Assembly (NCBI RefSeq): GCF_003015185.1
Contig: NZ_CP027860.1
Span: 5,797,001-5,861,000, forward strand
DNA length: 64,000 nt
Origin: Ahniella affigens
GTDB taxonomy: Bacteria; Pseudomonadota; Gammaproteobacteria; Xanthomonadales; Ahniellaceae
Direction: 5' to 3'
Of the stretch, positions 22,903-60,205 are shown one piece after another. The position numbers and the translations under genes were made by a program. Position 1 is the stretch's first letter. Every line of letters begins with the position of its first letter. A model generated the notes under the pieces. The model was not told where the DNA came from. It saw nothing but the letters and a program-made list of their open reading frames with translations, and did not search any database.

Positions 22903-24648
22903 ATGCGTCGATTGACCCTGTTGCTACCGGTATTGCTGGTCGCCTGCAGCGAGGCACCACCGCCGCCCGCAGCGCCGCCTGCGCCGGCAGCACCCACCTA
23001 CACCCCTCTCAAGGTCGCGCTCACCGACAATCATCAGCTGCAGAGCGCGATCACGGCCGAGGACTACGCGTTGCATATCAAGACGCTGTCGTCTGATGAA
23101 TACGAAGGCCGGGATCCGGGCAGCCTGGGCGAACGCCTGACGATGAACTATCTGGAAAACGAACTCCGTCGCATCGGTTATCTGCCGGCAGTCGGCGTGG
23201 ATGGCGCCTGTGCGAGCTTTCCGTGCGAGCACGCGAGCTACTTCCAGCGTGTGCCAATGGTGTCGACCACCACCGATCCGGCGACCAGCCTGACGATCCA
23301 AGTCGGTGATCAGACCCAGACCCTGAACATGGGCAAGGAAATGGTCATTGGTACGCGCAGTGGCGAAGCCGAGATCAAGATTGACGGTTCTGACCTGGTG
23401 TTCGTCGGCTATGGCGTCAATGCGCCAGAAGCCAACTGGAACGACTACGCCAACGTCGATGTCAAAGGCAAGACGGTGGTGGTCATGGTCAATGACCCGG
23501 GCTTTCTCCGAAAGGACGAGTCGCTGTTCAAAGGTCGCGCGATGACCTACTACGGTCGTTGGACGTACAAGTTCGAAGAGGCTGCGCGTCAGGGCGCGAA
23601 GGCGGCGCTGATCATTCATGACACCGAACCGGCTGCATACGGTTGGGATGTGGTCGTCAGTTCCTGGGGTGGTGCGCAGCATGATCTGCCGAAGTCGGAA
23701 GATCCCGAACCCCGTCTGACCGCGCAAGGTTGGATCAGCCTTGACACCGCGAAGGCGCTGTTCACCGCAGCGGGTCTCGATTTCGATGCCGAACGGAACC
23801 GTGCCGATCAAGCGGGCTTCACCGCCGTGCCGATGAACGCCAAGCTGAGTGGCGAGATCAAGAGCACCATCACCAACGATGCATCGAACAATGTGGTTGC
23901 AGTCCTCCCGGGCACGGAGTTCCCGAACGAGTCTGTGGTCTACAGCATGCACTGGGATCATCTCGGCAAGGATGAATCGCTGAAGGGCGATCAGATCTTC
24001 AATGGCGCGATCGACAATGCGACGGGCGTTGCCGCCGCGTTGGAAATTGCCGCGGCCTTTGCGGCTGCCGAAGAAAAGCCGAAGCGCTCGGTCGTGTTGT
24101 TGTTCACCACGCTCGAAGAATCAGGTTTGCTTGGTTCGCGCTACTTCGTCAAGCATCCCGCCGTGCCACTGGAAACCATGGCCGGCGTCATCAACATGGA
24201 TGCGATTCCGTTCATCGGTCGCACCAAGGATTTCAGCGTGGCCGGCTGGGATCAGAACAGTTTGCAGGATCTGATGGGCGAGGTGCTGAAGGCGCAGAAT
24301 CGCGTGCCGGCACCGGAATCGAATCCAGAACGCGGCTACTATTTCCGATCTGACCACTTCAACTTTGCGCGCGCTGGCGTGCCTGCGTTGCATGCCGGTG
24401 CCGGTTCCGAACACGTGGCCTACGGTACGGCCTATGTCGATGAGATCAACAAGAAGTACGACGAGGTGGCCTACCACCAGCCGCCGGACGAATTTGATCC
24501 GGAGTGGGATTACGCCGGTGCGATGGAAGACGTGAACGCTTATTACGCACTCGGTCAGCGCTTGGCCTATGGTCGCGAATGGCCAACGTGGCGCGAAAAC
24601 AGCGAGTTCCGCGCAGCCCGCGAAGCATCCGCCAAGGCGCGGCCCTGA
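22903..24648 (+). CDS. M28 family metallopeptidase lipoprotein
   Basis: A 581-residue lipoprotein: the signal peptide ends in LLVACS, followed by a Pro/Ala linker. A PA-like insert (around residues 140-230, GDQTQTLNMGKEMVIG) lies within the M28 zinc peptidase fold. Ligands seen are His in VVYSMHWDHLG, Asp in GAIDNATGVAAALEIA, Glu pair in TTLEESGLLGSRYF, Asp in VINMDAIPFIG and His in RSDHFNFARAGVPALH. It is probably a periplasmic aminopeptidase. It ends 3 bp before the glycerophosphotransferase-like gene, so it may lead that operon. GAAAGGAG precedes the start. Confidence 0.9.
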   Translation: MRRLTLLLPVLLVACSEAPPPPAAPPAPAAPTYTPLKVALTDNHQLQSAITAEDYALHIKTLSSDEYEGRDPGSLGERLTMNYLENELRRIGYLPAVGVDGACASFPCEHASYFQRVPMVSTTTDPATSLTIQVGDQTQTLNMGKEMVIGTRSGEAEIKIDGSDLVFVGYGVNAPEANWNDYANVDVKGKTVVVMVNDPGFLRKDESLFKGRAMTYYGRWTYKFEEAARQGAKAALIIHDTEPAAYGWDVVVSSWGGAQHDLPKSEDPEPRLTAQGWISLDTAKALFTAAGLDFDAERNRADQAGFTAVPMNAKLSGEIKSTITNDASNNVVAVLPGTEFPNESVVYSMHWDHLGKDESLKGDQIFNGAIDNATGVAAALEIAAAFAAAEEKPKRSVVLLFTTLEESGLLGSRYFVKHPAVPLETMAGVINMDAIPFIGRTKDFSVAGWDQNSLQDLMGEVLKAQNRVPAPESNPERGYYFRSDHFNFARAGVPALHAGAGSEHVAYGTAYVDEINKKYDEVAYHQPPDEFDPEWDYAGAMEDVNAYYALGQRLAYGREWPTWRENSEFRAAREASAKARP

Positions 24649-24651
24649 TCG

Positions 24652-25611
24652 ATGCGGGTCGCCTACTTTTACGCCAATCCCTTCCACCACGCCATGCTGG
24701 CGCCGGTGGAAACGGCACTCGGCAATCAGGTTGAGTCGCGCCGCTTCAGCTCGCTGGATGCGATGCGCGAGTTCGCGCCCGATGTGGTGGTGCTGGCCGA
24801 GAATCCGAGTCACCAGGCGAAGCGGGCCGCGCCGAATGCCCGCATCGTCTGGACTCGCCATGGCTTTGCGAACAAACGCTATCTGGGCTACTCGATGGCC
24901 GGCTGCGATTACGCCTGCCTGTCGAGTGCGTGGCTCAAGCAGTATTACCGCGATCAGGGCCTGCGTGCCGGCATCGATGAATGGGTGACCGGCTTCGTAC
25001 CAATGGATGCGCTGTATCGCCGTTTGCAAAGGGCGGCACCACGGTCCACTAAAACCCTGCTGTATGCCCCGACCTTCAATCCAAACATGGCGTCGGTGCG
25101 CCCACTGGGAAAATCCTGGGCGAGTGACCTGCGGCGCGCGTATCCGGAACTCAATATCGTCATCAAGCCGCATCCGCACACGGCGAAGGAACAGCCCATG
25201 TGGCTGGCGCGATGGCAGTCCTGGGCCGAGGCCGATTCGGGAATCCAGCTGATCCAGGACGGCAATCAGGATGTTTACGAGCTGATGCCGGACGCGGATA
25301 TTCTGCTCACGGATGCATCGAGCGTGATGTTCTATTTCCTCGCGCTCGATCGCCCGATCATTCTGGTCGACAACCCACTCCGGTTCGAAGATCGGCAGCG
25401 TTTCAAGCCCGACGCTGAAGAATGGGCTTGGCGCGATATCGGTCAGCGCATCGAGACCGGCGACGCCCTGACGGCCGCGGTGGCGAGCGCCCTGGAAACG
25501 CCGAGCCGGTTTGCGGAGGCCAGGCAGCAGCGTGCGCAGCAGATTTTCGGCGATCTGTTTGACGGCCGTGCGGCCGAGCGTGTCGCCCAGCATATCCTGG
25601 CGCTGGCATGA
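24652..25611 (+). CDS. CDP-glycerol glycerophosphotransferase family protein (TagB/TagF-like)
   Basis: A 319-residue protein. The family core is visible: TRHGFANKRYLGY, LLYAPTFNPNMASVRP (the YAPT box), VIKPHPHT, and ADILLTDASSVMFYFLALDR followed by PIILVDNP. Members transfer polyol-phosphate units from CDP-activated donors to glycan or lipid acceptors (teichoic-acid-like polymers or capsule). It lacks membrane segments and is shorter than TagF, so it may add one or few units. It starts 3 bp after the M28 gene, and its stop overlaps the next start by 4 bp. Acceptor and donor are unknown. Confidence 0.8.
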   Translation: MRVAYFYANPFHHAMLAPVETALGNQVESRRFSSLDAMREFAPDVVVLAENPSHQAKRAAPNARIVWTRHGFANKRYLGYSMAGCDYACLSSAWLKQYYRDQGLRAGIDEWVTGFVPMDALYRRLQRAAPRSTKTLLYAPTFNPNMASVRPLGKSWASDLRRAYPELNIVIKPHPHTAKEQPMWLARWQSWAEADSGIQLIQDGNQDVYELMPDADILLTDASSVMFYFLALDRPIILVDNPLRFEDRQRFKPDAEEWAWRDIGQRIETGDALTAAVASALETPSRFAEARQQRAQQIFGDLFDGRAAERVAQHILALA

Positions 25612-26291
25612 AGGCGGCGACCACGGCTTTGATCGCTGCCGCCGGGGTGGGCAGTCGGCTCGGCCTCGGGCCAAAGGCGTTTCTCCGCCTTGGCGCGCAA
25701 AGCCTGCTGGCGCGCGTCGCGCATACGGCGACCGCCGTGGCCGACACCATCGTCGCGGCGATTCCACCGGGTTCGGACGCCGAGGCGCGTGCCGAGTTGC
25801 CCGGTCATGTGCGGCTGATTCATGGCGGCGAGTCCCGTCAGCAGTCCTTTGCGCAGCTTTTGGCCGAGGCGCACAGCGAGTACGTTCTGTTGCTGGATAT
25901 CGCTCGGCCACTCGTGTCGGCGGACTTATGCCAGCGTGTGCTCAACGCTGCCGCGCGCCATGGCGCGGCGGGCGCCTATGTCCCGGCGCTGGTGCCCGCA
26001 GCCCGTGTGGATGCGGAGGGTGGTGTCGTACAGGCCTATGCGGCCGATCAGTACCACCTGCCGCAAATGCCGCAGGCGTTCCGGCGCACCATCTTGATCG
26101 ATGTGTTGGCGCGCGCGAAAGCGCAAGGCTTGCAGCGTCAGACCGTTTGGCAATTGGCAGTCGAACTTGGCGTCCGCCTGCAGGCAGTGCGCGGCGAGCC
26201 TGGCAATATCAAAATCACAGAACCGGTAGACTGGGCTCTGGCACAATGTCTGATTGACGCACCAACATCAATCTCAAGAAGCGACGTATGA
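25608..26291 (+). CDS. IspD/TarI-like cytidylyltransferase
   Basis: A 227-residue nucleotidyltransferase. It has the CTP-binding loop AAGVGSRLG with R17 and the PK pair P22-K23. HGGESRQQSF, LLLDIARPLV and NIKITEPVDWALAQ all match the IspD/TarI family. IspD itself makes CDP-methylerythritol and normally sits with ispF and ftsB. Here it lies instead between a glycerophosphotransferase-like gene and a RuBisCO-like gene, with 4 bp overlaps on both sides. I therefore infer activation of a polyol phosphate (for example ribitol or glycerol phosphate) as the CDP derivative. A methylerythritol role cannot be excluded from sequence alone. Confidence 0.75.
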   Translation: MKAATTALIAAAGVGSRLGLGPKAFLRLGAQSLLARVAHTATAVADTIVAAIPPGSDAEARAELPGHVRLIHGGESRQQSFAQLLAEAHSEYVLLLDIARPLVSADLCQRVLNAAARHGAAGAYVPALVPAARVDAEGGVVQAYAADQYHLPQMPQAFRRTILIDVLARAKAQGLQRQTVWQLAVELGVRLQAVRGEPGNIKITEPVDWALAQCLIDAPTSISRSDV

Positions 26292-27544
26292 GTTCAGAAT
26301 CCCTGTCAACCGAGCACGCGGAGTGGTTCCGCTGGTCCGATGAATTGAATCGCGCGGACTATGTTTTCGCGCGCTACCGCATTGTCACGGCACAGGCGGT
26401 CGAGGTCGTGGCGTTGGCCATGGCGCGCGAGCAAAGTGCGTGCACGACGACACTGCCCATTGGTGATCTGGACTTGCGCGCGCACACGGCGCGGGTGGTG
26501 TCGATCGATAATCATGGTCCGAGCGATGTCCGGGCGCTGCCGCGGTATCGGCTGACGACGTCGGTCTACGCCGATGTGGCCCAGGCGGAACAGGCGCACG
26601 CCTATGAAGTCGAGATCGCGTATCCGATTGCCAATTTGAAGCCGACGGCGAGCTGCCTGCTGAATCATTGCTACGGCGAGATTGCGCGTCTTGGTTTTCT
26701 TGATGCGGCCAAGCTGTTGTCGCTGGACTTGCCGACGAGCTTTGAAGTGCAGTTTCCCGGTCCTCGCCTGGGCGCCTCCGGTTTTCGCGCCAAAGTCGGC
26801 GCCAAAGACCGTCCGTTCTTTTGTCGATCCACCCGTCCGGCCGTGGGACTCAATAACGCGCAGTTGCTGCAGGTGATCGAGCCGGTCTTGCGCGGTGGCT
26901 TTGATGCCATCAAGGACGATGAGCTCTCCGAAGACATTGCTCCATCACGCGTCGAAGAGCGCTATCGCGGCATGGCCGAAACTCGCGCGCGCCTCGTCGC
27001 CGAGACGGGCGAGAACAAAGTGCTGTTTGCGAATCTGATTGCCGAGGATCAGTTCGAACCGATCGCCGCGTGTGCGCTTCGACATGGCATCGACGGCGTG
27101 CTGGTCGCGCCAGGATTGAACGGGTTCGGTGCCATTCGCCGCGCGCGCGAACTGGGATTCATCGTGCTCGCGCATAATGCCGGCGTGGATGGTTTGGTGC
27201 GCCCGTTGCATGTCGGCATCAGCGAAGCGGTATGGACCCAACTCTGCCGACTCAGTGGCGCCGACCTGATCATGATGCCTGGCGAATTTGGTGGCGGCAC
27301 CGCCGTACGCACCGCTAACACTGCCGAGGCCGCCGTCATCGACGCGTGCATTCGACCCATGAGCGGCCACGCTGCCGCATTGCCGGTGCTCGCTGGCGGC
27401 AAACGCCCGGAGCGCCTGCCGATCTATCAGAGCATTGTGGGCAGCGACGACTACTTCCTGATCATTGCGACGGCAGTGGACGATCATCCGGAAGGACTGG
27501 AAGTGGGCGCCAGAGCGTTTCGGCAGGCGGCAACTGGGGCGTGA
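26288..27544 (+). CDS. RuBisCO-like protein (form IV type)
   Basis: A 418-residue protein with the RuBisCO large-subunit layout: an N-terminal domain to about residue 140, then a TIM barrel. The carbamylation and metal motif is kept: GGFDAIKDDELSED gives K209, D211 and E212 (K201, D203, E204 in spinach). N126 in LLNHCYG matches N123. Other catalytic residues differ: STRPAVGL replaces TIKPKLGL, GADLIMMPG replaces GDHIHAGT (His lost), and no loop-6 lysine is present. This is the pattern of non-carboxylating RuBisCO-like proteins, some of which are enolases or isomerases acting on sugar phosphates. It overlaps the cytidylyltransferase gene (ATGA at 26288). The substrate is unknown. Confidence 0.85.
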   Translation: MSSESLSTEHAEWFRWSDELNRADYVFARYRIVTAQAVEVVALAMAREQSACTTTLPIGDLDLRAHTARVVSIDNHGPSDVRALPRYRLTTSVYADVAQAEQAHAYEVEIAYPIANLKPTASCLLNHCYGEIARLGFLDAAKLLSLDLPTSFEVQFPGPRLGASGFRAKVGAKDRPFFCRSTRPAVGLNNAQLLQVIEPVLRGGFDAIKDDELSEDIAPSRVEERYRGMAETRARLVAETGENKVLFANLIAEDQFEPIAACALRHGIDGVLVAPGLNGFGAIRRARELGFIVLAHNAGVDGLVRPLHVGISEAVWTQLCRLSGADLIMMPGEFGGGTAVRTANTAEAAVIDACIRPMSGHAAALPVLAGGKRPERLPIYQSIVGSDDYFLIIATAVDDHPEGLEVGARAFRQAATGA

Positions 27545-27726
27545 TGACGGGTTGATGTCCTATGGCGTCATCCTTGTGCCGTCAGAACATCCTCCCTCAT
27601 TGTCCATGCTGCGACAAATCTCCGATGAAGCAAGGCCTTTGGGTCGTTTGCTGCATATTGCCCCCAAAACCTCATCTCGAAATTACGCGAAGCCCGGGCC
27701 ACGTTCGTTATCAAAAGCCCCAAGAA

Positions 27727-28395
27727 CTAACTTGATGGGAAAAGAAGGATTTTGGTTCTCTCAAGCACGTCCTTTCCAATCTCAATCAGCTGATAGTACG
27801 TCGCTGGGTAACCATCAGCGACCTTCACATTGTGGAGTTGAAGTATATGTCGATCAAATCTGTTCTCTGCTGAGTCAGCATCGCTTGTACCGGCCGGATG
27901 GCTTGCACCCAGAGCGTTTGCAACTCTCTTGATCAAGATCTCGCGCGAGATCCATAGTTGGGGGTGTTCGTCGATACCAGATGGAACCTCATAGATACCG
28001 CAAGCGAGCCACTCAGTAAAACTCAGTTGCGAATCTTGGCCAACTGGTGGACCCGCTTTGTATATAGTATCGAGCTCTTCAGCCGACAACGCTCTATTTA
28101 CAAATGTCAATCCCTTCAGCTGCACGCCCGGACTGTCAACCCCGCTGGCCAGCGGTAACTGAACGCGCCTACTGCCCTTAAGAACTTGCTTTACCTTCTT
28201 CGGCGTCGAATAGTTCGCGAAGCCGAGGCTAGTGCCGCTCTCATTTGCAAGCTCATCAACAAATTTTTTCATGTCGACCCAGACTCGAAGCGAGTGGGAA
28301 AGATCCAGAAAACTCACTGGATCCTTGTGCTTTAGTGCCAATGTGTGGTGGCGGCTTAGACGAGCGTATTGGAGCCTAACGTGTGCGACGTCCAT
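27727..28395 (-). CDS. hypothetical protein, base composition unlike neighbours
   Basis: A 222-residue protein I do not recognise. It has no signal peptide or membrane helix. Charged N-terminal half (MDVAHVRLQYARLSRHHTLA; VWVDMKKFVDELANE), a LTFVNRALSAEELDTIY stretch, and the C-terminal YQLIEIGKDVLERTK look like a soluble alpha/beta protein. Codon use is visibly more A/T-rich than in flanking genes, suggesting transfer. The ATG at 28395 has an AGGAG site 5 bp upstream; the longer frame from 28455 has none. It lies alone and converges with the RuBisCO-like gene. No function assigned. Confidence 0.6.
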   Translation of the reverse strand: MDVAHVRLQYARLSRHHTLALKHKDPVSFLDLSHSLRVWVDMKKFVDELANESGTSLGFANYSTPKKVKQVLKGSRRVQLPLASGVDSPGVQLKGLTFVNRALSAEELDTIYKAGPPVGQDSQLSFTEWLACGIYEVPSGIDEHPQLWISREILIKRVANALGASHPAGTSDADSAENRFDRHILQLHNVKVADGYPATYYQLIEIGKDVLERTKILLFPSS

Positions 28396-28798
28396 CGGGA
28401 CTCCTGGCGGCATTCGTGGGCGAGTAGTCGTCTGCGTGCAAATACACGCTGCCAATGCCTTGCCAGTATATATGCCTAGGTATTAGGAAGGAACGTTTGG
28501 TAGCCGGACACCACCTAAGGCATTCCCGTACTTATCGGGCAAAGCTTTCATACTTTGGGTTCGCCGCCGATGGGTTCAATTGAACTAGGAAACACGAATC
28601 TACCTGATGCGCGTTGATATCAGCAGAACAGGTGGCATGCCCCTTCCTCGGACGAAGTCGTCAACCCTGAAAGATTCCGCACGGAAAGTTGATCAATGGT
28701 GCCGCAATGATGTTCATCACCCAAACGTTCGACAGGGGATTCAGCTAGAGAAGGATGGTCAAATGGAACCAGCGTCGGGCAGGCGTCCTCGTCTGCCC
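28396..28798. other. intergenic region
   Basis: About 400 bp, relatively A/T-rich like the orphan gene beside it. It ends in a GGGCAGAC-type palindrome at 28775. No gene, tRNA or clear terminator was seen; it may be the rest of a transferred segment. Confidence 0.5.
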
Positions 28799-28805
28799 CT
28801 ACGAT
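28775..28805. repeat. GGGCAGAC palindromic repeat
   Basis: GGGCAGGCGTCCTCGTCTGC followed by CCCTACG, the imperfect palindrome of the family seen at 16160, 20919 and 62510. Its end touches the stop codon of the next gene (28799). Confidence 0.6.
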
Positions 28806-46837: not shown

Positions 46838-47037
46838 GGCCAGACCATGCCCGGGTGGGCCAGGAAACACAAGGCCCGGAATGCCGGTCCAGGGTTGATG
46901 TCGTGATCCGGAAATCACAATTTGTTGCATGCGGTCTGACGCTCGCCAAAACCCAGGAATGATTCGCAAACAGTTGATCTGAAATGCAGATTGGCGCACA
47001 CTCTGGCCGTCTGTCTGACATGCTTCGGGGAAGAAAC

Positions 47038-50000
47038 ATGCGAATTAAGCTTGGGGTCTGGTCACTGATCCTCTCACTGGCCTCACTGAGCGTCGCTGCT
47101 CAGGACTACCGATACGACGTGTATCTCGACACCGATGCGAATGCATCGACGGGGTGTACGGTTACCTCTCCGGGTGGGACCGTCAGCGGTGTCGAAGCGC
47201 GTGTCCGCGCCGATATCACGAATGTCACCGTCACGGGCAGCACGGTTTCCGTCTGCAGCGCGGGCACCTTCCCCGCGGGCGAGGCGCTGCCTGCTCCGTA
47301 TGCAGTCGGCCTGAATAACGGCACGGCCGGCGCCGATGTCATCGAAATGGGTACGCCAGCCACACTGGCTCCCGCCGGTGCCACGGTTCCGGTTTACGCC
47401 ATTGGCTGGAACGGCGCCAGCACGGCGTCCGATATTCTGGCAACGACTACCGGACTGGCCGGTGGCCCGCCGATTCTCCTCGGATTCCCGGTCAACAATA
47501 TTCCGACGATGGGCCTATTAGGCCTGGGACTGCTGGTCCTGGTGCTCGCGGTTTTCGGCATGAAGCGCATCCGCCTGGCCGCCCGCGCGAGCTTGGCGTC
47601 GATTGGCCTGCTGATGATGGCCGGCGCCGTTTGGGCCGCCGCCTACACGGTCGACGGGCAAGTGGGTGATTGGACCGGCGAGACCCCGATTGCCGTTGAC
47701 CCAGCGGGCGACGGCAGTAGTGTCGACTCCGGCATCGATATCCGGGCGCTGTTTGCGGGCTTCGAAGCCGGCAAGCTGTTCCTCCGCATTGACGTGACCG
47801 ATGTCGAGAATCAACCACCGGTCGCCAACCCCGTTACGGCAACGCTGCTGGAAGACGCAGCGCCGCAAACGATCACGCTGAGTGGTAGTGACCTGGACGG
47901 TGATCCGCTGACCTTCACGGTCGCGACCAGCCCGACGAAGGGCACGCTCGGCGCCGTGACGCCAATTAACACCACGTCGGCCTCGGTCCAGTACACCGTG
48001 ACGCCGAACGCCAACGGCGCCGACAGCTTCACGTACCGCGCTAACGACGGCTTCGTGAATTCGCCTGATGCGACCGTCAGCCTGACGATCACGCCGGTCA
48101 ATGACATTCCGACCTTCACCTCGCAGAATCCCCCCGCTGTGAACGAAGATGCCGGACCACAAACAGCGCCCGTGGCCTCGGGCCTCAGTGCCGGTCCAGC
48201 CGATGAAAGCGGGCAGACGATTGCGTTCACGATCACGAACAACACTAATCCAGCGCTGTTCAACGGCGTGCCGACGATCAACGCGGCTGGTCAGCTCAGC
48301 TACACCCCGGCGGCGAACGTCAGCGGCACGGCGCAACTCACGTTTACCGCGCAGGACAATGGCGGCACCGCAAACGGCGGTGTCGATACATCGGCGCCAG
48401 CCACGATCACCGTGACCGTGAATGCCGTCAATGATGCGCCGAGCTTCACGGCGGGCGCCAATCAAACAGCTTTGGAAGACGCACCCGCCGTCACCGTCGC
48501 CGGTTGGGCGACTGCCATCTCGCCGGGTCCGGCGGACGAAGCAGGGCAGACGCTGACCTTCAATGTCACGGCCAACACCAACACGGCGCTATTTTCTGTG
48601 CAGCCAGCGGTCAATCCGACCAACGGTAATCTGACCTATACCCTGGCGCCGAATGCCAATGGTGTGGCGACGATCAGTCTGACGCTGAGCGACAACGGCG
48701 GTACGGCGAATGGCGGTCAGGACACGTCTGCGGCGCAGACCTTCACGATCACCGTTACGGCCGTCAACGACGTGCCGAGCTTTACGTCGAGTGGCAACGT
48801 CACGGTGCTCAAAGACACCGGCGGCAATACCATTCCGAACTGGGCCACGGCAATCAGCGCCGGTCCGGCCGATGAAGCGGGTCAGACCGTCAATTTCCAG
48901 ATCACCAACAACACGAACGCCGGGCTGTTCTCGGTGGCCCCGGCTGTTTCGGCAACCGGCACGCTGACGTTCACCACCGCTGCGAACGCCAATGGCTCGG
49001 CGACGATCACGATTCGTATTGCCGACAACGGCGGCGTTGCGAATGGCGGCGTCGACACATCGGCCACGCAGACCTTCGATATCACGCTGACGCCGGTCAA
49101 TGACGCACCGAGCTTCACCCCGGGCGCTAACCAGACGGTGCTGGAAGATGCTGGCGCACAGACGGTTGCCGCGTGGGCCACTGCGATTAGCGCCGGTCCG
49201 CCCGACGAGGCTGGTCAGGTGCTGACCTTCAACGTCACGGGCAACACGAACCCAGCGCTGTTCAGTGCTGCTCCGGCAGTCAATCCGACCACGGGTAACC
49301 TGACTTACACGCCGGCCGCCAACGCCAACGGCATCGCCTCGATCACGCTGACGCTGAGCGACAATGGCGGCACTGCCAACGGTGGCAACGACACCAGCGC
49401 GCCGATCACGTTCACCATTACCGTTACCGCGGTGAACGACGTCCCGAGCTTTGCCGCTGGTGCAAACCAGAGCGTCCTGGAAGATGCGGGCGCGCAAACG
49501 TCGGCTGGTTGGGCCACCGCGATCTCGGCGGGTCCGGCGGATGAATCCGGCCAGACGCTCAGCTTTGCTGTGACTGGCAACACCAATGCGGGCCTGTTCA
49601 GTGTTGCGCCTGCGGTCGATCCGACTGGCACGCTGACCTACACCCCTGCCGCAAACACCTCGGGCGTGGCCACGATTACCCTGCGCATCTCGGACAATGG
49701 CGGCACCGCAAATGGTGGTGTCGACACCAGCGCCACGCAGAACTTCACGATCACGGTTTCTTCGGTCAATGACGCGCCAAGCTTCGTCGCAGGTGCCAAT
49801 CAGACCGTGGCCGAAGATGCCGGCGCGCAGACCGTTGCCGGATGGGCGACGGCCATTTCGCCGGGACCGGCAGATGAGTCGGGTCAGACCGTGACGTTTA
49901 ATGTGGCCTCGAACAGCAATGCGGCACTCTTCAGTACGGCGCCAGCCGTCAGCCCGACCGGTACGCTGACTTACACCCCAGCGGCGAATGCCAACGGTTC

Positions 50001-53000
50001 TGCCACCATCGGTCTCGCGCTGCAAGACAATGGCGGCACGGCGAACGGCGGTATCGACACGAGCGCTACGCAGACGTTCACGATCACGGTGACCGCGGTC
50101 AATGATGCGCCAGTCAACACAGTGCCTGGCGCGCAATCGGTTGGTACGGGCGCGACCCTGACGTTTACGACGGGCGGCGGCAATGCGATCTCGATTGCAG
50201 ACATAGATGCCGCAGCCGGCCCAGTCATCACGACGGTCAGCACAACGCTCGGCACGCTGTCGGCAACCGCCACCAATGGCGCGATCGTCACCGGCAGCGG
50301 CACGGCTTCGGTGTCGATCACCGATGTGGTGGCCGACGTCAACGCTACGCTGCAAACGTTGAGCTTCACCAGCGGCACGGGTGGCACCGGCACGATCACG
50401 GTGCTGACCAACGACCAGGGCAATACCGGCACACCGGGCGCGCAGAGCGATTCGGACAGCTTCGCGATCAATGTCGACTCGCCGCCAACCGTTTCGTCGA
50501 CCACGCCTGCCAACGGCAGTACGGTTGCCAACAACACGCCGCTGACCATCAACTTCAGCGAGTCGATTGTCGCCACCATTGGATCGGTGACGCTGACTTG
50601 CGGCGGCCCGAATCTGATCACCGGCGGCACCACGGGTACCGGCGTCACTGTGCTGAACCCGACGTACACGGCGCCGCTGCCAGCGGGCCCGTGCACCATG
50701 ACGATCATCGCCGGCAACATCACCGATTCCGACACGATTGATCCGCCCGACAACATGGTGAGCACGGTCACGGTGAACTTCACCGTCGATGCAGCGCCGA
50801 GCGTCAGCAACGTCGTGCCGGCCAATGGTGCGACCAATCAGCCGGTGAACTCGACCGTCGCGGTTACGTTCAATGAACCGGTTAACTTGGCTGCGGGTGC
50901 GTTCACGTTGGATTGCGGTGGCGCACAGCCCTTTACGGCCGTCCCCGCACTGCCGGCGACCAACACGACGTCAGTGACGCTCACGCCATCCTCGTCGCTT
51001 CCGGCCGCGACAAGCTGCACCGTTACGGTGTTGGCTGCGCTGGTCAACGACACCGACACGGCTGATCCGCCGGCCAACCTCGCCGCCAATTTCGTCAGCA
51101 CCTTCACGACGGATGCTGCGCCGACTGTGACCGGCGGCACGCCTGCGACGGGTGCGACAAACGTTGCGACCACGAGCCTCGTGACCTTTACCTTCAGTGA
51201 GAACGTGGATGCTGGCCCGGGTGCCGCAATTACCGTGGAATGCCCGATTGGCTCCCCGGTTGCAGGTACTGTGTCTGGTACCGGTACCTCGACACTGACC
51301 TTCACGCCGTCTGGCGCGATGCCGGTCAACACCGCGTGTCGTGCGACCGCAGTGGCCGCGAATATCAACGACTCCGATGTGGCAGATCCACCCGGACTCC
51401 TGGCCGCTGATGTGTCGCGCACGTTCACCACGGATGCCCCGCCGAGCGTGCTGAGCACCACGCCAGCTGCCGGTTCCACGGGCGTTGCGGCGACGAGCAC
51501 CATCACCGTCAACTTCTCCGAATCGGTAGCGTTCGACACGACTGCCAATGCCGCGAACACCAGCTTCGACTTCGAGTGCCCAGCGGGCACGCCGACCAAC
51601 TTCACTGTTTCGACCGCATCGCCGGCCGCTTCGGTGGTGTTGGATCCGCTCGATTCCGCGCTCGCCGGCCAGACCTGCACGTTGTCGGTGCGCGCGCTCG
51701 GCATTGCGGACGCCGACCTTGGCGATCCGCCGAACAACATGGTGGCTGACTTCGTTGCTACCTACACGTTTGCCGGTGTCGCCAACGACGACGCCGCAAC
51801 CGTGACGCCGCATCTGACCTACGCAGCACCTGTGAGCGTCACCGCCAACGACATCTTGGGCGCCGAAACCATCACCGGCTTCGGCCCGACCTTGGTCACG
51901 GCTAACGGCACGGTTCCGAACGGAACGAACGCGATCACAGCCGGTGGCGCGGGTGGCCGCATCATCCTGCAGGCGAATGGTGCCTACACGTTCTACCCGG
52001 ATGCGGGCGACACAACGGCCGCCGGTACGGTGACGTTCTTCTACACACTCAGTGGCGGTGATACCGCCCAGGTCACCTTGACCTTCGAGAACGAAGAGCT
52101 GGCTTGGTTCGTTGATGGCAGTGCCAGCGGCACGGTCTGCACGGGCTCCAACGTTGGTACGCAGGCTTGCCCATCCGCAAACTTCGCTGGCGTCAGTGCT
52201 CACACCACGAACGACGTGATCTTCGTCGACTCAGGTACGTACACCGGCACGCAGACGACGCTGGCTAACGGTGTGTTGTTGCTCGGTAACGGCTCGACAT
52301 CCACGATCAGCGCGTTGCTGGCAGCCCGAACGCCAGTGGCGAATGCGATTACGCCAGTGCCGGGATCTGATTTCGCCCCGTACAACGCACTAAACGGTGC
52401 CGCGCCCGTGTTGACCTGTACCAATGTCACCTGTGTGACCGCCGGGACTGGGGTAACGCTGCGCGGCTTCACGATCGGCGATTCCGGTGCAACCGGTACC
52501 GACCTTGCAGCCACCAACTTCGGGACGCTGACGGTAGACCAGGTCCTCCTGAACGGTACGGGCCGCGCGCTGAACTTGGCGACTGGTACGATTGCTGGCG
52601 CGGGCTTCACCGGCGTGGCCTCTACCTCGGGTGCGCAAGGCATCAACCTGTCGGCAATTGCCGGTACCTTGAACCTGGGTGGCACCACGATCAGTGGCAG
52701 CTCGGGACAAGGCATCAACATGGCCGGCATCACGGGTACCGTGAACACGGGTGGCACGTCGGTGACCGCCACGACCACGCAAGGCATCTTGGTCGGTACC
52801 TCTACGGGTGACGTCAACTTCGGCAACACCACGGTCTCGGCCAGCACGGACTGCGTCAGTCTGCAGAACAACAGCGCCGGTACGCGCACGTTCGGCACAC
52901 TGACCATTGGCACCTGCGGTGCCGTTGGTTTCCTGCACGCAACCGGTGGTGGTGCCGTGACGGTCACGGGCGCCACAAATATCACGGGTGTCGCAGCGAC

Positions 53001-55206
53001 CTTTGCGGGCATGTCGATCGATGCGAATACCACTGCGTTGACGTTCAACGGCGTGACCATCAACAAGGCCACGGCGGGCACCGGCCTCACCATTACCGGT
53101 TCATCCGGCGCCTTCAACGCGGGCGTCCTGTCGGTGACGACGAGTTCTGGCACTGGTGTGATCTACAGCACCTCGGCAGGTGGCTTGACGGCGGCAGCAG
53201 GATCGACCATTGCCGCAACAAACGGGCCGGCGATCACCTCTGCGACTGGCACCAACTGGAGCGGCACCTTCACGACGGTGTCGTCAACGAACAGTGCGAC
53301 CGCTGGTATTGACCTGAACGGCATCTCCGGAACCTTGGCGATGAACGGCGGTTCGATCACGGGCTCAACCGGAATCGGATTCGCGGGTGTCGGTACGCTC
53401 GGTACCACGACCTATGCAGGTTCCATCACGAAGGCGACGGCTGGCAAATTGGTCAGCCTTACCGGAGCTGGCGCAGGTACCGTAACGCTCAGCGGCGCGT
53501 TGAGCTGTACGAGCACGTGTACCGGTATCGACGTGTTGAACCGCAACGCGGGCACCTACACGTTCAGTAACGCTTCGAAGACGGTGACCACGGGCACCAG
53601 TGCGGCGGTCACGCTGACCAACAACACGGGCGCCTCGATCCTGTTCTCGGGTGGCGGTCTGGCGATCACGACCACTTCTGGCGCTGGCTTCGCCGCAACG
53701 GGTGGTGCGAACTCGATCGAAGTGACTGGTACGGGCAATGTCATTTCGTCCACCACCGGACGCGCGTTGGAAGTAACGAACTCGACGATCGGTGCTGCCG
53801 GCTTGACGTTCCAGAGCGTGTCGGTCAACGGTGCGACGAACGGCATCCTGCTGAACAATACGGGCAGCACAGCCGGTCTGACTGTCACAGGTGTGGCGGC
53901 TGCGGCCTCTGGCGGCACGATCCAGAATACGACCGCCAACGGTATCCGTCTGATCAGCACGCGCTCACCGTCGTTCAATCTGATGAGCATCAACAGCACC
54001 GTGGGCAGCGGCATCAAGGGCACCGGCGGCGTCACCAACTTCTCGCTGACGAACTCGACCATTTCGAATTCCAATGATGCGGCGGCGGACGGTGCGAATA
54101 CGGTGGACGAAGCCAACGTGGCATTCAACGACAATCAAGGTGGCACCGAATCCAACTTGACGGGCACCGTCACGATCACCGGTAATACGCTGACGCTGGC
54201 GCGCTATCACGGCATCGACATCTTCAACTATGCCGGCACGATCAGCTCGGCCAACATCAGCAACAACACGATCACCAGTGACACAGTGGGGGCCAATACC
54301 CTGGGTTCCGGTATTCGCCTGATTGCCTTCGGGTCAGCGACGACCGTTGCCAGCGTGACCTCGGCCACGATCAATAACAACATCGTGACGAACTTCCCGA
54401 CCGGCGCCGGCATCATGGCGCAGGGCGGCAATGCCAACGCTGGCGGTCCGAGTACGGGTGTCATTGGTAACGCCGCCAACGCGGCGCAGACCATCACGAT
54501 CACGAACAATCGTGTCAGTGGTCAGAGTGCGGCGAACCGCATCAACACCCAGGCAATCCTCACCGTGGTGAATGGTCGCGGTACCGGCCGATTCGATGTG
54601 TCGAGCAACGGTACTTTGGCCAACCCAGTCCAGCACACGACAGGAACGTCGTTTGCCGGTTCGTCGTTCGGCAACAGCACGGCGGTCGCGACCTTCAACA
54701 ACAATGTGCTGGTTTCCAATAACCAAGTTGGCGCGCAGGGCTTCGGTATCGGCACTGGTATCTTGTCGGTGGCAACCGAAACACCGACTTACACCGTCGA
54801 CATCACGAACAACAACATTTCGCAGACTGACGGGAACGGCATTCTGCTGGTGGCGCGTGATGCCACCAGCACCCTGCGCAGCAAGATACAAACGAACACC
54901 GTCGCCGCGCCGTTGGGCGGGGTCCGACCGGGTATTCGAGTCGATTCGGGCAATGCGTCGGCCGGCACTGACGAGAACGTCTGCGTCAATCTGTCCGGCA
55001 ACACCAGCGCAGGCAGCGGCGGCACAAACGGTATCGGTCTCCGCAAGCAGGGGGTAGTAACCACGACGCACGACTTTGGCGTCCACAACATGGTTGCGAC
55101 CACAACACCGGCTGTTGAAGCACATGTCGCCGGGCAGAATCCAGCCGGCAACGGCGTGCTGCTGATTTCGGCGACAAGCGGCTTTAGTAACTGCAACAAT
55201 CCTTGA
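47038..55206 (+). CDS. giant adhesin-like secreted protein with cadherin-like repeats and C-terminal beta-helix
   Basis: A 2722-residue protein. Signal peptide, then a small domain (25-150). At residues 155-180 there is an IPTM-GLLGLGLLVLVLAVFG segment resembling an IPTL-CTERM sorting signal, and at 175 a second signal-peptide-like stretch (MKRIRLAARASLASIGLLMM then AGAVWAAA). Next come a cadherin-like domain (about 250-360), six tandem repeats of about 111 residues with VND ends (48104-50100), four Big_5-like Ig domains opening with PANGAT/TPATGAT (50490-51780), and a right-handed beta-helix to the end. No LPXTG or FE tail. Probably surface-exposed. The ATG at 47038 follows GGGGAAG. Confidence 0.8.
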   Translation: MRIKLGVWSLILSLASLSVAAQDYRYDVYLDTDANASTGCTVTSPGGTVSGVEARVRADITNVTVTGSTVSVCSAGTFPAGEALPAPYAVGLNNGTAGADVIEMGTPATLAPAGATVPVYAIGWNGASTASDILATTTGLAGGPPILLGFPVNNIPTMGLLGLGLLVLVLAVFGMKRIRLAARASLASIGLLMMAGAVWAAAYTVDGQVGDWTGETPIAVDPAGDGSSVDSGIDIRALFAGFEAGKLFLRIDVTDVENQPPVANPVTATLLEDAAPQTITLSGSDLDGDPLTFTVATSPTKGTLGAVTPINTTSASVQYTVTPNANGADSFTYRANDGFVNSPDATVSLTITPVNDIPTFTSQNPPAVNEDAGPQTAPVASGLSAGPADESGQTIAFTITNNTNPALFNGVPTINAAGQLSYTPAANVSGTAQLTFTAQDNGGTANGGVDTSAPATITVTVNAVNDAPSFTAGANQTALEDAPAVTVAGWATAISPGPADEAGQTLTFNVTANTNTALFSVQPAVNPTNGNLTYTLAPNANGVATISLTLSDNGGTANGGQDTSAAQTFTITVTAVNDVPSFTSSGNVTVLKDTGGNTIPNWATAISAGPADEAGQTVNFQITNNTNAGLFSVAPAVSATGTLTFTTAANANGSATITIRIADNGGVANGGVDTSATQTFDITLTPVNDAPSFTPGANQTVLEDAGAQTVAAWATAISAGPPDEAGQVLTFNVTGNTNPALFSAAPAVNPTTGNLTYTPAANANGIASITLTLSDNGGTANGGNDTSAPITFTITVTAVNDVPSFAAGANQSVLEDAGAQTSAGWATAISAGPADESGQTLSFAVTGNTNAGLFSVAPAVDPTGTLTYTPAANTSGVATITLRISDNGGTANGGVDTSATQNFTITVSSVNDAPSFVAGANQTVAEDAGAQTVAGWATAISPGPADESGQTVTFNVASNSNAALFSTAPAVSPTGTLTYTPAANANGSATIGLALQDNGGTANGGIDTSATQTFTITVTAVNDAPVNTVPGAQSVGTGATLTFTTGGGNAISIADIDAAAGPVITTVSTTLGTLSATATNGAIVTGSGTASVSITDVVADVNATLQTLSFTSGTGGTGTITVLTNDQGNTGTPGAQSDSDSFAINVDSPPTVSSTTPANGSTVANNTPLTINFSESIVATIGSVTLTCGGPNLITGGTTGTGVTVLNPTYTAPLPAGPCTMTIIAGNITDSDTIDPPDNMVSTVTVNFTVDAAPSVSNVVPANGATNQPVNSTVAVTFNEPVNLAAGAFTLDCGGAQPFTAVPALPATNTTSVTLTPSSSLPAATSCTVTVLAALVNDTDTADPPANLAANFVSTFTTDAAPTVTGGTPATGATNVATTSLVTFTFSENVDAGPGAAITVECPIGSPVAGTVSGTGTSTLTFTPSGAMPVNTACRATAVAANINDSDVADPPGLLAADVSRTFTTDAPPSVLSTTPAAGSTGVAATSTITVNFSESVAFDTTANAANTSFDFECPAGTPTNFTVSTASPAASVVLDPLDSALAGQTCTLSVRALGIADADLGDPPNNMVADFVATYTFAGVANDDAATVTPHLTYAAPVSVTANDILGAETITGFGPTLVTANGTVPNGTNAITAGGAGGRIILQANGAYTFYPDAGDTTAAGTVTFFYTLSGGDTAQVTLTFENEELAWFVDGSASGTVCTGSNVGTQACPSANFAGVSAHTTNDVIFVDSGTYTGTQTTLANGVLLLGNGSTSTISALLAARTPVANAITPVPGSDFAPYNALNGAAPVLTCTNVTCVTAGTGVTLRGFTIGDSGATGTDLAATNFGTLTVDQVLLNGTGRALNLATGTIAGAGFTGVASTSGAQGINLSAIAGTLNLGGTTISGSSGQGINMAGITGTVNTGGTSVTATTTQGILVGTSTGDVNFGNTTVSASTDCVSLQNNSAGTRTFGTLTIGTCGAVGFLHATGGGAVTVTGATNITGVAATFAGMSIDANTTALTFNGVTINKATAGTGLTITGSSGAFNAGVLSVTTSSGTGVIYSTSAGGLTAAAGSTIAATNGPAITSATGTNWSGTFTTVSSTNSATAGIDLNGISGTLAMNGGSITGSTGIGFAGVGTLGTTTYAGSITKATAGKLVSLTGAGAGTVTLSGALSCTSTCTGIDVLNRNAGTYTFSNASKTVTTGTSAAVTLTNNTGASILFSGGGLAITTTSGAGFAATGGANSIEVTGTGNVISSTTGRALEVTNSTIGAAGLTFQSVSVNGATNGILLNNTGSTAGLTVTGVAAAASGGTIQNTTANGIRLISTRSPSFNLMSINSTVGSGIKGTGGVTNFSLTNSTISNSNDAAADGANTVDEANVAFNDNQGGTESNLTGTVTITGNTLTLARYHGIDIFNYAGTISSANISNNTITSDTVGANTLGSGIRLIAFGSATTVASVTSATINNNIVTNFPTGAGIMAQGGNANAGGPSTGVIGNAANAAQTITITNNRVSGQSAANRINTQAILTVVNGRGTGRFDVSSNGTLANPVQHTTGTSFAGSSFGNSTAVATFNNNVLVSNNQVGAQGFGIGTGILSVATETPTYTVDITNNNISQTDGNGILLVARDATSTLRSKIQTNTVAAPLGGVRPGIRVDSGNASAGTDENVCVNLSGNTSAGSGGTNGIGLRKQGVVTTTHDFGVHNMVATTTPAVEAHVAGQNPAGNGVLLISATSGFSNCNNP
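48104..50100 (+). repeat. six tandem ~333 bp coding repeats
   Basis: Within the adhesin gene, the text VND-x-PSF...NQT-x-LEDAG...WATAIS...GPADE...DNGGTANGG-x-DTSA...T recurs six times at 333-336 bp spacing (repeat borders near 48428, 48763, 49098, 49431, 49764 and 50097). DNA identity is high in places but not perfect. Confidence 0.85.
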
Positions 55207-58415: not shown

Positions 58416-58973
58416 ATGACTGTAACGAGTCCGATTCCGGTACCACTGTCGATCATTTCAGCGCACTATGGTTTCAGTACGGGGACTGCCCAAGCGCAGA
58501 TCGCAATTGGCAAGCAACATTTCGCGCAGCAAACGCCGTCTGGACAAGGGCAGTATTGGTTCCTAGTCATCGACCGCAGCAATCTCAATGTGGTTTACAA
58601 CCAGTTGCAAGCTGCGTCGGACCAGGCGCCGCCCATCCAGCAATTCAATAACCCGAACTACATCTTGGTGGTGGCGACGCTCGCCGTCGGCTTCAATCAT
58701 CAGCCGCAAGGCGCCTTGTTCAAATTCCTTGATCTGAACGGCGCCGGCCGACAACTCCGCCGCATCGATCAATTGGCGCAACAGTTTGGTTGCGGCTCGC
58801 TTGGCACGTTTGGCTACGCGCTGGTCAGTGTGCTCGGTGACTTGAATCAGCCTGGCTACGAGCTCAGCGACGTCAACGGCCCGGCCTGGGCACCGATTCT
58901 CACCGTGCAACTGATGCCGTTCCAAGTGTCTGGTGGCGTGCTGTACACGCCGGTCGAACTCAGTAACGCATGA
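58416..58973 (+). CDS. hypothetical protein
   Basis: A 185-residue soluble protein of unknown family: YWFLVIDRSNLNVVYNQLQA, YILVVATLAVGFNHQPQGAL, and FGCGSLGTFGYALVSVLGDL. The order of a strand with an ILVVA segment, then a late GTFGYALVSVLG, loosely recalls ILEI-type lectin-like domains, but I would not assign that. AAGGAG precedes the ATG at 58416. Its stop overlaps the glycosyltransferase start (ATGA at 58970), so the two are coupled and probably act together. Confidence 0.65.
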   Translation: MTVTSPIPVPLSIISAHYGFSTGTAQAQIAIGKQHFAQQTPSGQGQYWFLVIDRSNLNVVYNQLQAASDQAPPIQQFNNPNYILVVATLAVGFNHQPQGALFKFLDLNGAGRQLRRIDQLAQQFGCGSLGTFGYALVSVLGDLNQPGYELSDVNGPAWAPILTVQLMPFQVSGGVLYTPVELSNA

Positions 58974-60205
58974 GTCAAGCCGCCCCGGGAGCGTCGCGCC
59001 GCCGATTGTTGATCGCCGGTTGGCACCGGCCGGGGACGGGCTTCACGCGGGTGCTGGATGCGCTCGTGCAGCGGTTTGTGACCCAGGTGGATATCACCTG
59101 GGTCGCGATTGGCGACACCGGTCCCGAACGCCTGCTTCAGCCTGGCGTGCAGTTGATTCCGGTGCCGATGGGCGTCGGCGATTCCGTCGGCGCGTACTTG
59201 ATCCGAGACCGCCTCGACGCGCTCGCGCCCGACGCGATCTTTGCGCTCAACGATCTGTGGTACCTGGAGCACTACGCCCGCGTGCTCGGGCCCGTGCTCG
59301 GATCGATTCCACTGATTGGCTATTTGCCGCTCGATGGCGATATCCCGGACGATCTGGTGCTCCCCGATCTTTCTGCCTACCGGACACTCTGCACGTACAC
59401 CCGCTACGCCGCCGACAATCTTCGCAGTTCGATTCAACGTGCCGGCATGGCAATCAACGTCGCCATCGCCGGACACGGCGTTGCGCGAGCGCAGTTTCAA
59501 CCCGCCGAAACGGTCCGTCGCGTCGACTTTGCCATCACCGAACGACTATCCCTGGCCCAGTCGCTGTTTGCGCTCAACGAACCCACCTGTGTCGTTCTGA
59601 ATGCGAGCCGGCCAGATCCGCGCAAACGCATTGACCTCGGCCTGCTCGGGTTGGCGGCGTACCGTGCTCAAGGTGGGAGTGATGTGCGTCTGTGCTTGCA
59701 TCAGGCCATTGCGCACGAATCCATGGCCGAGGCGCTGCGCGCCCAGATTCGCGAATTGAATCTGGAGTCCGCGATCATCTGGTGGCCCAAGGAGCCTGGT
59801 CCGATTTCGGATCAAGCATTGACCGAGCTCTATAACGCCTGCGCGCTCGGGTTGAATACCAGTGCGGGTGAAGGCTTCGGCCTGGTGAGCTTCGAACACG
59901 CCGCGTGTGGCGTGCCGCAACTGCTGCCCGACCTGCCGCCGCTCCGCGAACTCTGGCAGGACGCTGCGATCCTGCTCGGACCACCGGTGCGCGTGCGCAC
60001 CCGTTGGTCGCCGTTGCTGATGAGCGAACTGCAGCCAGATCACGTTGCCGACGGATTCAAGAACGTGCTAACGGATCCGAAGCAATACCAAGCACTCAGC
60101 CACGCCGCCTTGGCCCGGGCCAATGCACCTGCGTTCGAATGGGACAGCGTGGCGGCCGATATTGCGGGGCTAATACCCGAGGTGTTTGGCAATACTGGGG
60201 CGTGA
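58970..60205 (+). CDS. GT4-family glycosyltransferase
   Basis: A 411-residue GT-B enzyme. N-terminal part: LLIAGWHRPGTGFTRVLDAL; C-terminal part: VVLNASRPDPRKRIDLGLLG (start of the GT4 core), and LGLNTSAGEGFGLVSFEHAA, the E-x7-E nucleotide-sugar site. The AACGVPQ sequence follows. It has no membrane helix. It may glycosylate a cell-surface product or one of the collar proteins, inferred only from context. It is coupled to the upstream gene. Confidence 0.85.
   Translation: MSQAAPGASRRRLLIAGWHRPGTGFTRVLDALVQRFVTQVDITWVAIGDTGPERLLQPGVQLIPVPMGVGDSVGAYLIRDRLDALAPDAIFALNDLWYLEHYARVLGPVLGSIPLIGYLPLDGDIPDDLVLPDLSAYRTLCTYTRYAADNLRSSIQRAGMAINVAIAGHGVARAQFQPAETVRRVDFAITERLSLAQSLFALNEPTCVVLNASRPDPRKRIDLGLLGLAAYRAQGGSDVRLCLHQAIAHESMAEALRAQIRELNLESAIIWWPKEPGPISDQALTELYNACALGLNTSAGEGFGLVSFEHAACGVPQLLPDLPPLRELWQDAAILLGPPVRVRTRWSPLLMSELQPDHVADGFKNVLTDPKQYQALSHAALARANAPAFEWDSVAADIAGLIPEVFGNTGA

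Follow-up and report, generated by a model that had tools for sequence, protein, structure and literature searches.

To our knowledge, every role described for a RuBisCO-like protein (RLP) is one of salvage or catabolism, namely methionine salvage, the MTA-isoprenoid shunt, and apionate catabolism. Substrates with a single phosphate are already usual among these proteins, as with MtnW and OiaX. Phosphodiester glycan pathways are encoded by PA1088-PA1091 (P. aeruginosa b-type flagellin) and cd0241-cd0244 (C. difficile Type A), where a CDP-X synthase is combined with a phosphotransferase of the Glyphos_transf type. We describe a locus of Ahniella affigens in which a predicted pair of this kind adjoins an RLP gene. 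It differs from the two known loci, which have a PA1090-type nucleotidyltransferase, a HAD phosphatase, and a methyltransferase, in that its synthase is IspD-like and the RLP takes the place of the phosphatase and methyltransferase. An RLP outside the named clades in such a CDP-X gene setting appears to be new: the setting is unreported for RLPs in the literature searched, where no co-mention of "RubisCO-like protein" and "cytidylyltransferase" was found.

The window, meaning the whole stretch of DNA analyzed, is 64,000 nucleotides of contig NZ_CP027860.1 (positions 5,797,001 to 5,861,000). Its relevant features are collected in Table 1. The M28 peptidase gene is probably co-transcribed with the three genes that follow it and is probably unrelated to them in function.

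Table 1. Features at and near the RLP locus, in window coordinates
Feature	Position	Strand	Basis or remark
tolB-pal-cpoB-queE			upstream in window; gene content of a gammaproteobacterium
Predicted lipoprotein M28 peptidase	22903..24648	+	Pfam Peptidase_M28, 150.8 bits; ends 3 bases before P0003
Predicted CDP-X phosphotransferase P0003, Glyphos_transf family	24652..25611	+	319 aa; PF04464, 67.5 bits
ATGA 4-bp overlap, P0003/P0002	25608-25611	+	sequence read directly
IspD-like cytidylyltransferase P0002	25608..26291	+	227 aa; Pfam IspD, 108.8 bits
ATGA overlap, P0002 stop/P0001 start	26288..26291	+	sequence read directly
RuBisCO-like protein (RLP) gene P0001	26288..27544	+	418 aa; Pfam PF00016, alignments, tree

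The RLP gene has an intact frame, and its G+C at the three codon positions (0.68/0.48/0.71) is coding-like and matches that of the neighboring genes. The product is a member of the RuBisCO superfamily, as Pfam RuBisCO_large matches the catalytic barrel domain over residues 168-415 (74.1 bits, E 1.5e-20; cutoff 30.1), and this is the sole PF00016 match within the complete genome. Most invariant columns that define the fold are kept, and the C-terminal ~40 residues (helix region) are absent compared with the other RLPs aligned. An AlphaFold2 model built from a two-row alignment had a mean pLDDT of 47 and was left unused for fold searches. Directly behind the gene, at 27550-28800, G+C falls to 0.52-0.54, possibly marking a foreign insert; a frame of 242 aa on the minus strand of this stretch (27727-28455) matches nothing in Pfam.

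Active-site residues were read from an alignment of 45 RuBisCO and RLP rows, with a form I row as the ruler; the 44 rows aligned with the Ahniella RLP included forms I and II and MtnW, NonPhoto, OiaX/3nwr, and Photo-type RLPs. Retention of the metal ligands K209, D211, and E212 (RuBisCO K201, D203, and E204), claimed in an earlier note on this DNA, was confirmed, and H296 (H294) is kept as well. By these residues, the protein appears to retain a metal site with a carbamylatable lysine, which supports the metal binding that the note had proposed. The losses listed there were also found in the alignment: K175 is R183, in contrast to the Lys of the 44 other rows; K177 is A185; H325 and H327 are L327 and M329; K334 of loop 6 is A339, leaving the lysine without a counterpart in a loop 3 residues longer than in the other rows; and the glycine triplet G403-405 is A394-T395-A396 (ATA). 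In addition, R295 is N297, S379 is A369, and N123 is E131, a Glu found among the rows tabulated otherwise only in Photo RLPs, L035, and L026 (the latter two also RLPs). T53 and G371 are probably the counterparts of T65 and G381. Direct reading of the codons gave CGT for R183, GCC for A185, and GCG ACG GCA for the triplet (394-396), so single sequencing errors cannot account for the pattern, and an error at K175 was dropped as an explanation.

Losses of H327, R295, the loop-6 lysine, and K177 are unremarkable, because MtnW-, NonPhoto-, and Photo-type RLPs share them; what appears distinctive in this sequence is the K175R change, the ATA triplet, the absent C-terminus, and the extreme divergence. 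Where forms I-III have K175, K177, R295, H327, K334, and GGG, it has R, A, N, M, A, and ATA, and it scores 127.4 bits against the model for carboxylating RuBisCO (TIGR03326; cutoff 497.45). It is thus predicted to be no carboxylase, and the exclusion of carboxylation in the earlier note stands. Of the two phosphate sites of RuBisCO, T65, W66, K334, G381, G403, and G404 make up one and R295, H327, and S379 the other. The triplet is changed, as had been noted, but had been placed in the second phosphate site, whereas it forms part of the C1-phosphate site of RuBisCO. With the R295/H327/S379 set gone and the glycine-triplet set reduced, neither phosphate site is intact, and for this reason the suggestion of a substrate with only one phosphate was dropped.

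We then placed the protein among the RLP clades, and the align-and-tree check put forward with the earlier note left it in no named clade. It misses every NCBIfam equivalog cutoff widely, while an OiaX used as positive control passes the OiaX cutoff (779.8 versus 700). In AU tests, joining it to any of four sets was rejected: MtnW and the broad OiaX/3nwr set (each p 0.026), NonPhoto (p 0.029), and the OiaX pair (p 0.001). Joining it to Photo was not rejected (p 0.084). These p values are modest and carry the model's long-branch risk. Placement among the methionine-salvage enolases had been named as an example of a result that would undo the claim, and it fails on scores as well (119 versus 409 and 96 versus 513.6 bits). 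MtnW/YkrW, the 2,3-diketo-5-methylthiopentyl-1-phosphate enolase, is like the Ahniella protein in its RLP fold, KDDE motif, and lack of the carboxylation residues, but has K175, an intact glycine triplet, and a Lys at N123 that is absent here. OiaX, the 3-oxo-isoapionate-4-phosphate decarboxylase, likewise shares the RLP fold and metal triad but keeps K175, R295, K334, and GGG, all lost from our protein, which scores 110.9 bits against OiaX. The IV-NonPhoto clade (3qfw, Rhodospirillum type) is recognized by Q or H at E204 and a KPx-G motif; at the E204 position the Ahniella RLP has E212.

In the maximum-likelihood (ML) tree, the Ahniella RLP is sister to L026 (P0005, genome G071), a protein of another gammaproteobacterial family with 32-34% identity to it (support 96/86), and the two group with L035 and the IV-Photo clade at 96/93. 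The terminal branch of the Ahniella protein measures 2.6 changes per site, so this position needs caution. L026 shares the Glu at N123, the Asn at R295 (HNA), and the GGK and YQS-VGS-D motifs, but differs in keeping K175 and S379, in having GSA for ATA and a full C-terminus, and in its gene neighborhood. We regard the Ahniella protein, on its sequence, as a very divergent RLP outside the named clades. The subgroup suggested earlier is only tentatively drawn, with a single sister that keeps K175.

The joint clade and the AU result would also fit a fast-evolving RLP with the IV-Photo function, as would the Glu at N123 and the top PDB matches, which are Photo RLPs (best 127 bits). The IV-Photo RLPs of Chlorobium tepidum (1ykw) and Rhodopseudomonas palustris (RLP2, 2qyg) further share the KDDE metal motif and, like the Ahniella protein, lack H327, R295, and the loop-6 lysine. 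The tree, however, puts the protein with L026 outside Photo, and the K175 and GGSD/PGRG motifs by which IV-Photo is recognized are absent, with Arg for K175 and ATA for the triplet. Loop 6 is also longer, the C-terminal helix is missing, and the operon holds CDP-X genes, whereas the Photo-type RLP gene taken for comparison (L054) stands beside photosynthesis genes and idi. Altogether, we consider a Photo function very improbable.

Several other RLPs merit separate mention. L054, on the Thiodictyon plasmid pTs485, is a Photo-type RLP encoded immediately after idi and a gene of the YjbQ family in a photosynthesis cluster, a context that hints at isoprenoid metabolism for Photo-type RLPs. Four NonPhoto-type gammaproteobacterial RLPs (L009, L010, L038, and L041) carry, judged by eye, a fused cupin-like C-terminal part of ~150 aa (ELRYFELEPGGYTS.EKHLHTHVIIGARG...VHQLRN), resembling in one chain the RLP and downstream cupin of the MTA-isoprenoid shunt. 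L019 (G026:C1:185977-186884) is an RLP gene that seems to be broken into two neighboring parts read in different frames and may be a pseudogene.

Proteins like the Ahniella RLP proved rare. Scanning 84,980 genomes by peptide pattern returned a single relative, at 24% identity. When 369 genomes were sampled from the class and 398 from the phylum, L026 was the best match (E 6e-51), with nothing nearer. No further such protein was found in ten sampled genomes of the family (source included) or among 60 sampled relatives, and no relative was encoded on viral contigs. Relatives at 40-60% identity may exist elsewhere.

This isolation bears on the main rival to a catalytic role, that the RLP is degenerating or non-catalytic, either serving a structural or regulatory purpose or being lost. 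The K175R change, alteration of both phosphate sites, the missing C-terminus, and a long terminal branch with no near relative found all point in that direction. Yet the frame is intact and the codon composition normal, and the metal ligands are all retained, as are H296 and the majority of the invariant columns that define the fold; moreover, R183, A185, and the triplet need many base changes, throughout which the frame has stayed open. Loss of catalysis is therefore, in our judgment, unlikely, if not lightly set aside.

The two upstream genes point to a possible setting for the RLP, one that the earlier note had passed over. P0003 scores well above the Glyphos_transf cutoff of 22.1, bears the motifs HG, KPHP, and TD-SS, of which HG and KPHP are common to FgtA, and matches the phosphotransferase part of P. 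aeruginosa FgtA/PA1091 at 30% over 331 columns. The proposed donor of FgtA is a CDP-activated (dimethyl)threonine and its target the flagellin glycan (PMC11833859). Neither P0002-like nor P0001-like genes occur at the loci of other P0003 relatives (L076-L079).

P0002 keeps the CTP and catalytic residues R20, K27, S88, D106, R109, and K213 in alignment and has lost D139-T140 and R157 (E. coli numbering), of which T140 and R157 bind methylerythritol; in E. coli IspD, T140 bonds the methylerythritol hydroxyls (PMC3111433). Its score against the IspD equivalog model TIGR00453 (114.9 bits) is below the cutoff of 181.3, and a separate canonical IspD (211.6 bits) is encoded elsewhere in the genome. 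By score and residues, then, P0002 appears to belong to the IspD family without being a MEP cytidylyltransferase. We had considered a MEP/isoprenoid shunt in which the RLP supplies DXP to IspD, and dropped it in view of the missing MEP-binding residues of P0002 and the presence of the canonical enzyme.

Among sampled relatives, P0003 found matches only at E 1e-11, outside the family, and no P0002 relative at E 1e-25 occurred in 100 sampled genomes; the lack of near relatives of all three proteins in sampled relatives fits a joint gain. That both junctions in a row overlap by 4 bp, and that all three genes are absent from relatives, suggests one functional unit, which argues against an RLP acting independently on a sugar-phosphate or other small molecule and overlapping the CDP-X genes by accident. 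Such independence would agree with an association seen at one locus only and with the varied settings of RLP relatives, many of which have a four-carbon acid sugar kinase beside them; we hold it to be distinctly unlikely.

A search of 299 phylum genomes recovered three relatives of P0002 (35-45%), all from one small class (48 genomes). The DT-to-VP change is common to P0002 and all three of these nearest relatives, and in two cases, G507 and G494, the relative adjoins a TPR-LicD gene, starting 4 bp behind it in G507 and overlapping it by 20 bp in G494. LicD/fukutin-type enzymes move phospho-groups from CDP donors. The arrangement in G507 and G494 is like that of ISPD (CRPPA) and fukutin (ribitol-phosphate), the animal pair of this kind (PMC9010444), with an IspD-like CDP-polyol synthase and a LicD/fukutin-type transferase; the trio of the window differs from that pair in its Glyphos_transf transferase and the added RLP. 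With Glyphos_transf here and LicD in G507 and G494, members of the P0002 subfamily thus stand beside CDP-X phosphotransferases from two families that are not related. None of the P0002 relatives has an RLP gene next to it, and no RLP was detectable with the Ahniella RLP in the 48 genomes of their class, so the RLP would be an addition particular to the lineage of the window.

Long repeat proteins are encoded in both G507 and the window. In G507, the P0002 relative and TPR-LicD gene are followed by a very long surface-type protein (L084:10122-17241; DUF4347, Calx-beta, and Ig repeats), which may be a target of phospho-decoration. In the window, a protein of 2740 aa (46984-55206) that carries bacterial Ig and cadherin-like repeats is a possible surface target, and phage-tail-collar proteins and a group 1 glycosyltransferase come after it (58970-60205).

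From the observed gene order, overlaps, fold families, residues, and tree position, we infer one shared pathway, as well as the activities of P0002, P0003, and the RLP, the order of steps, and the nature of X. In this model, the RLP makes or rearranges a sugar-like precursor of a CDP-activated phospho-group destined for a surface glycan or protein, a reading we favor tentatively, at just under an even chance. A metal held by carbamylated K209, D211, and E212 would allow the RLP to enolize a keto-sugar-like compound, which would then be isomerized, epimerized, or split to give X-phosphate or its precursor. P0002 would join X-phosphate and CTP to form CDP-X, and P0003 would pass X-phosphate from CDP-X to the acceptor. 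Conjecturally, E131 (Photo-like) and R183 are the likeliest proton-transfer groups.

Catalysis by the RLP is suggested by its retained metal site, and its partnership with the CDP-X genes by gene order at one locus. Supporting this pathway are the ATGA overlaps at both junctions, the intact metal ligands, the CTP site of P0002 without T140 and R157 together with the TPR-LicD genes beside its relatives, and the resemblance of P0003 to the FgtA phosphotransferase part, for which a CDP-activated donor is proposed. The gene of the sister RLP L026 is flanked by those of a GAPDH-type dehydrogenase and an aldo/keto reductase, a sugar-phosphate setting that fits as well. Against the pathway, the trio was seen in a single genome, which leaves the link resting on one locus; the class of the P0002 relatives has no RLP detectable with the Ahniella protein in 48 genomes, so an RLP is not generally needed to make the X of those relatives; and the loss of K175, both phosphate sites, and the C-terminal region may mean that the protein is inactive. 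That an RLP with a rebuilt active site (R183, E131, and no recognizable phosphate site), probably acting on a new substrate, has a biosynthetic role and provides the building block for a CDP donor used in phosphodiester decoration of a surface glycan or protein is possible, though clearly short of an even chance.

If the proposed pathway is correct, gene order with CDP-X synthesis and transfer would give RLPs a role in surface decoration, and the RuBisCO fold would be doing chemistry without the lysine that all other RLPs examined have kept. The compound activated by P0002 would then be a direct lead to the product of the RLP.
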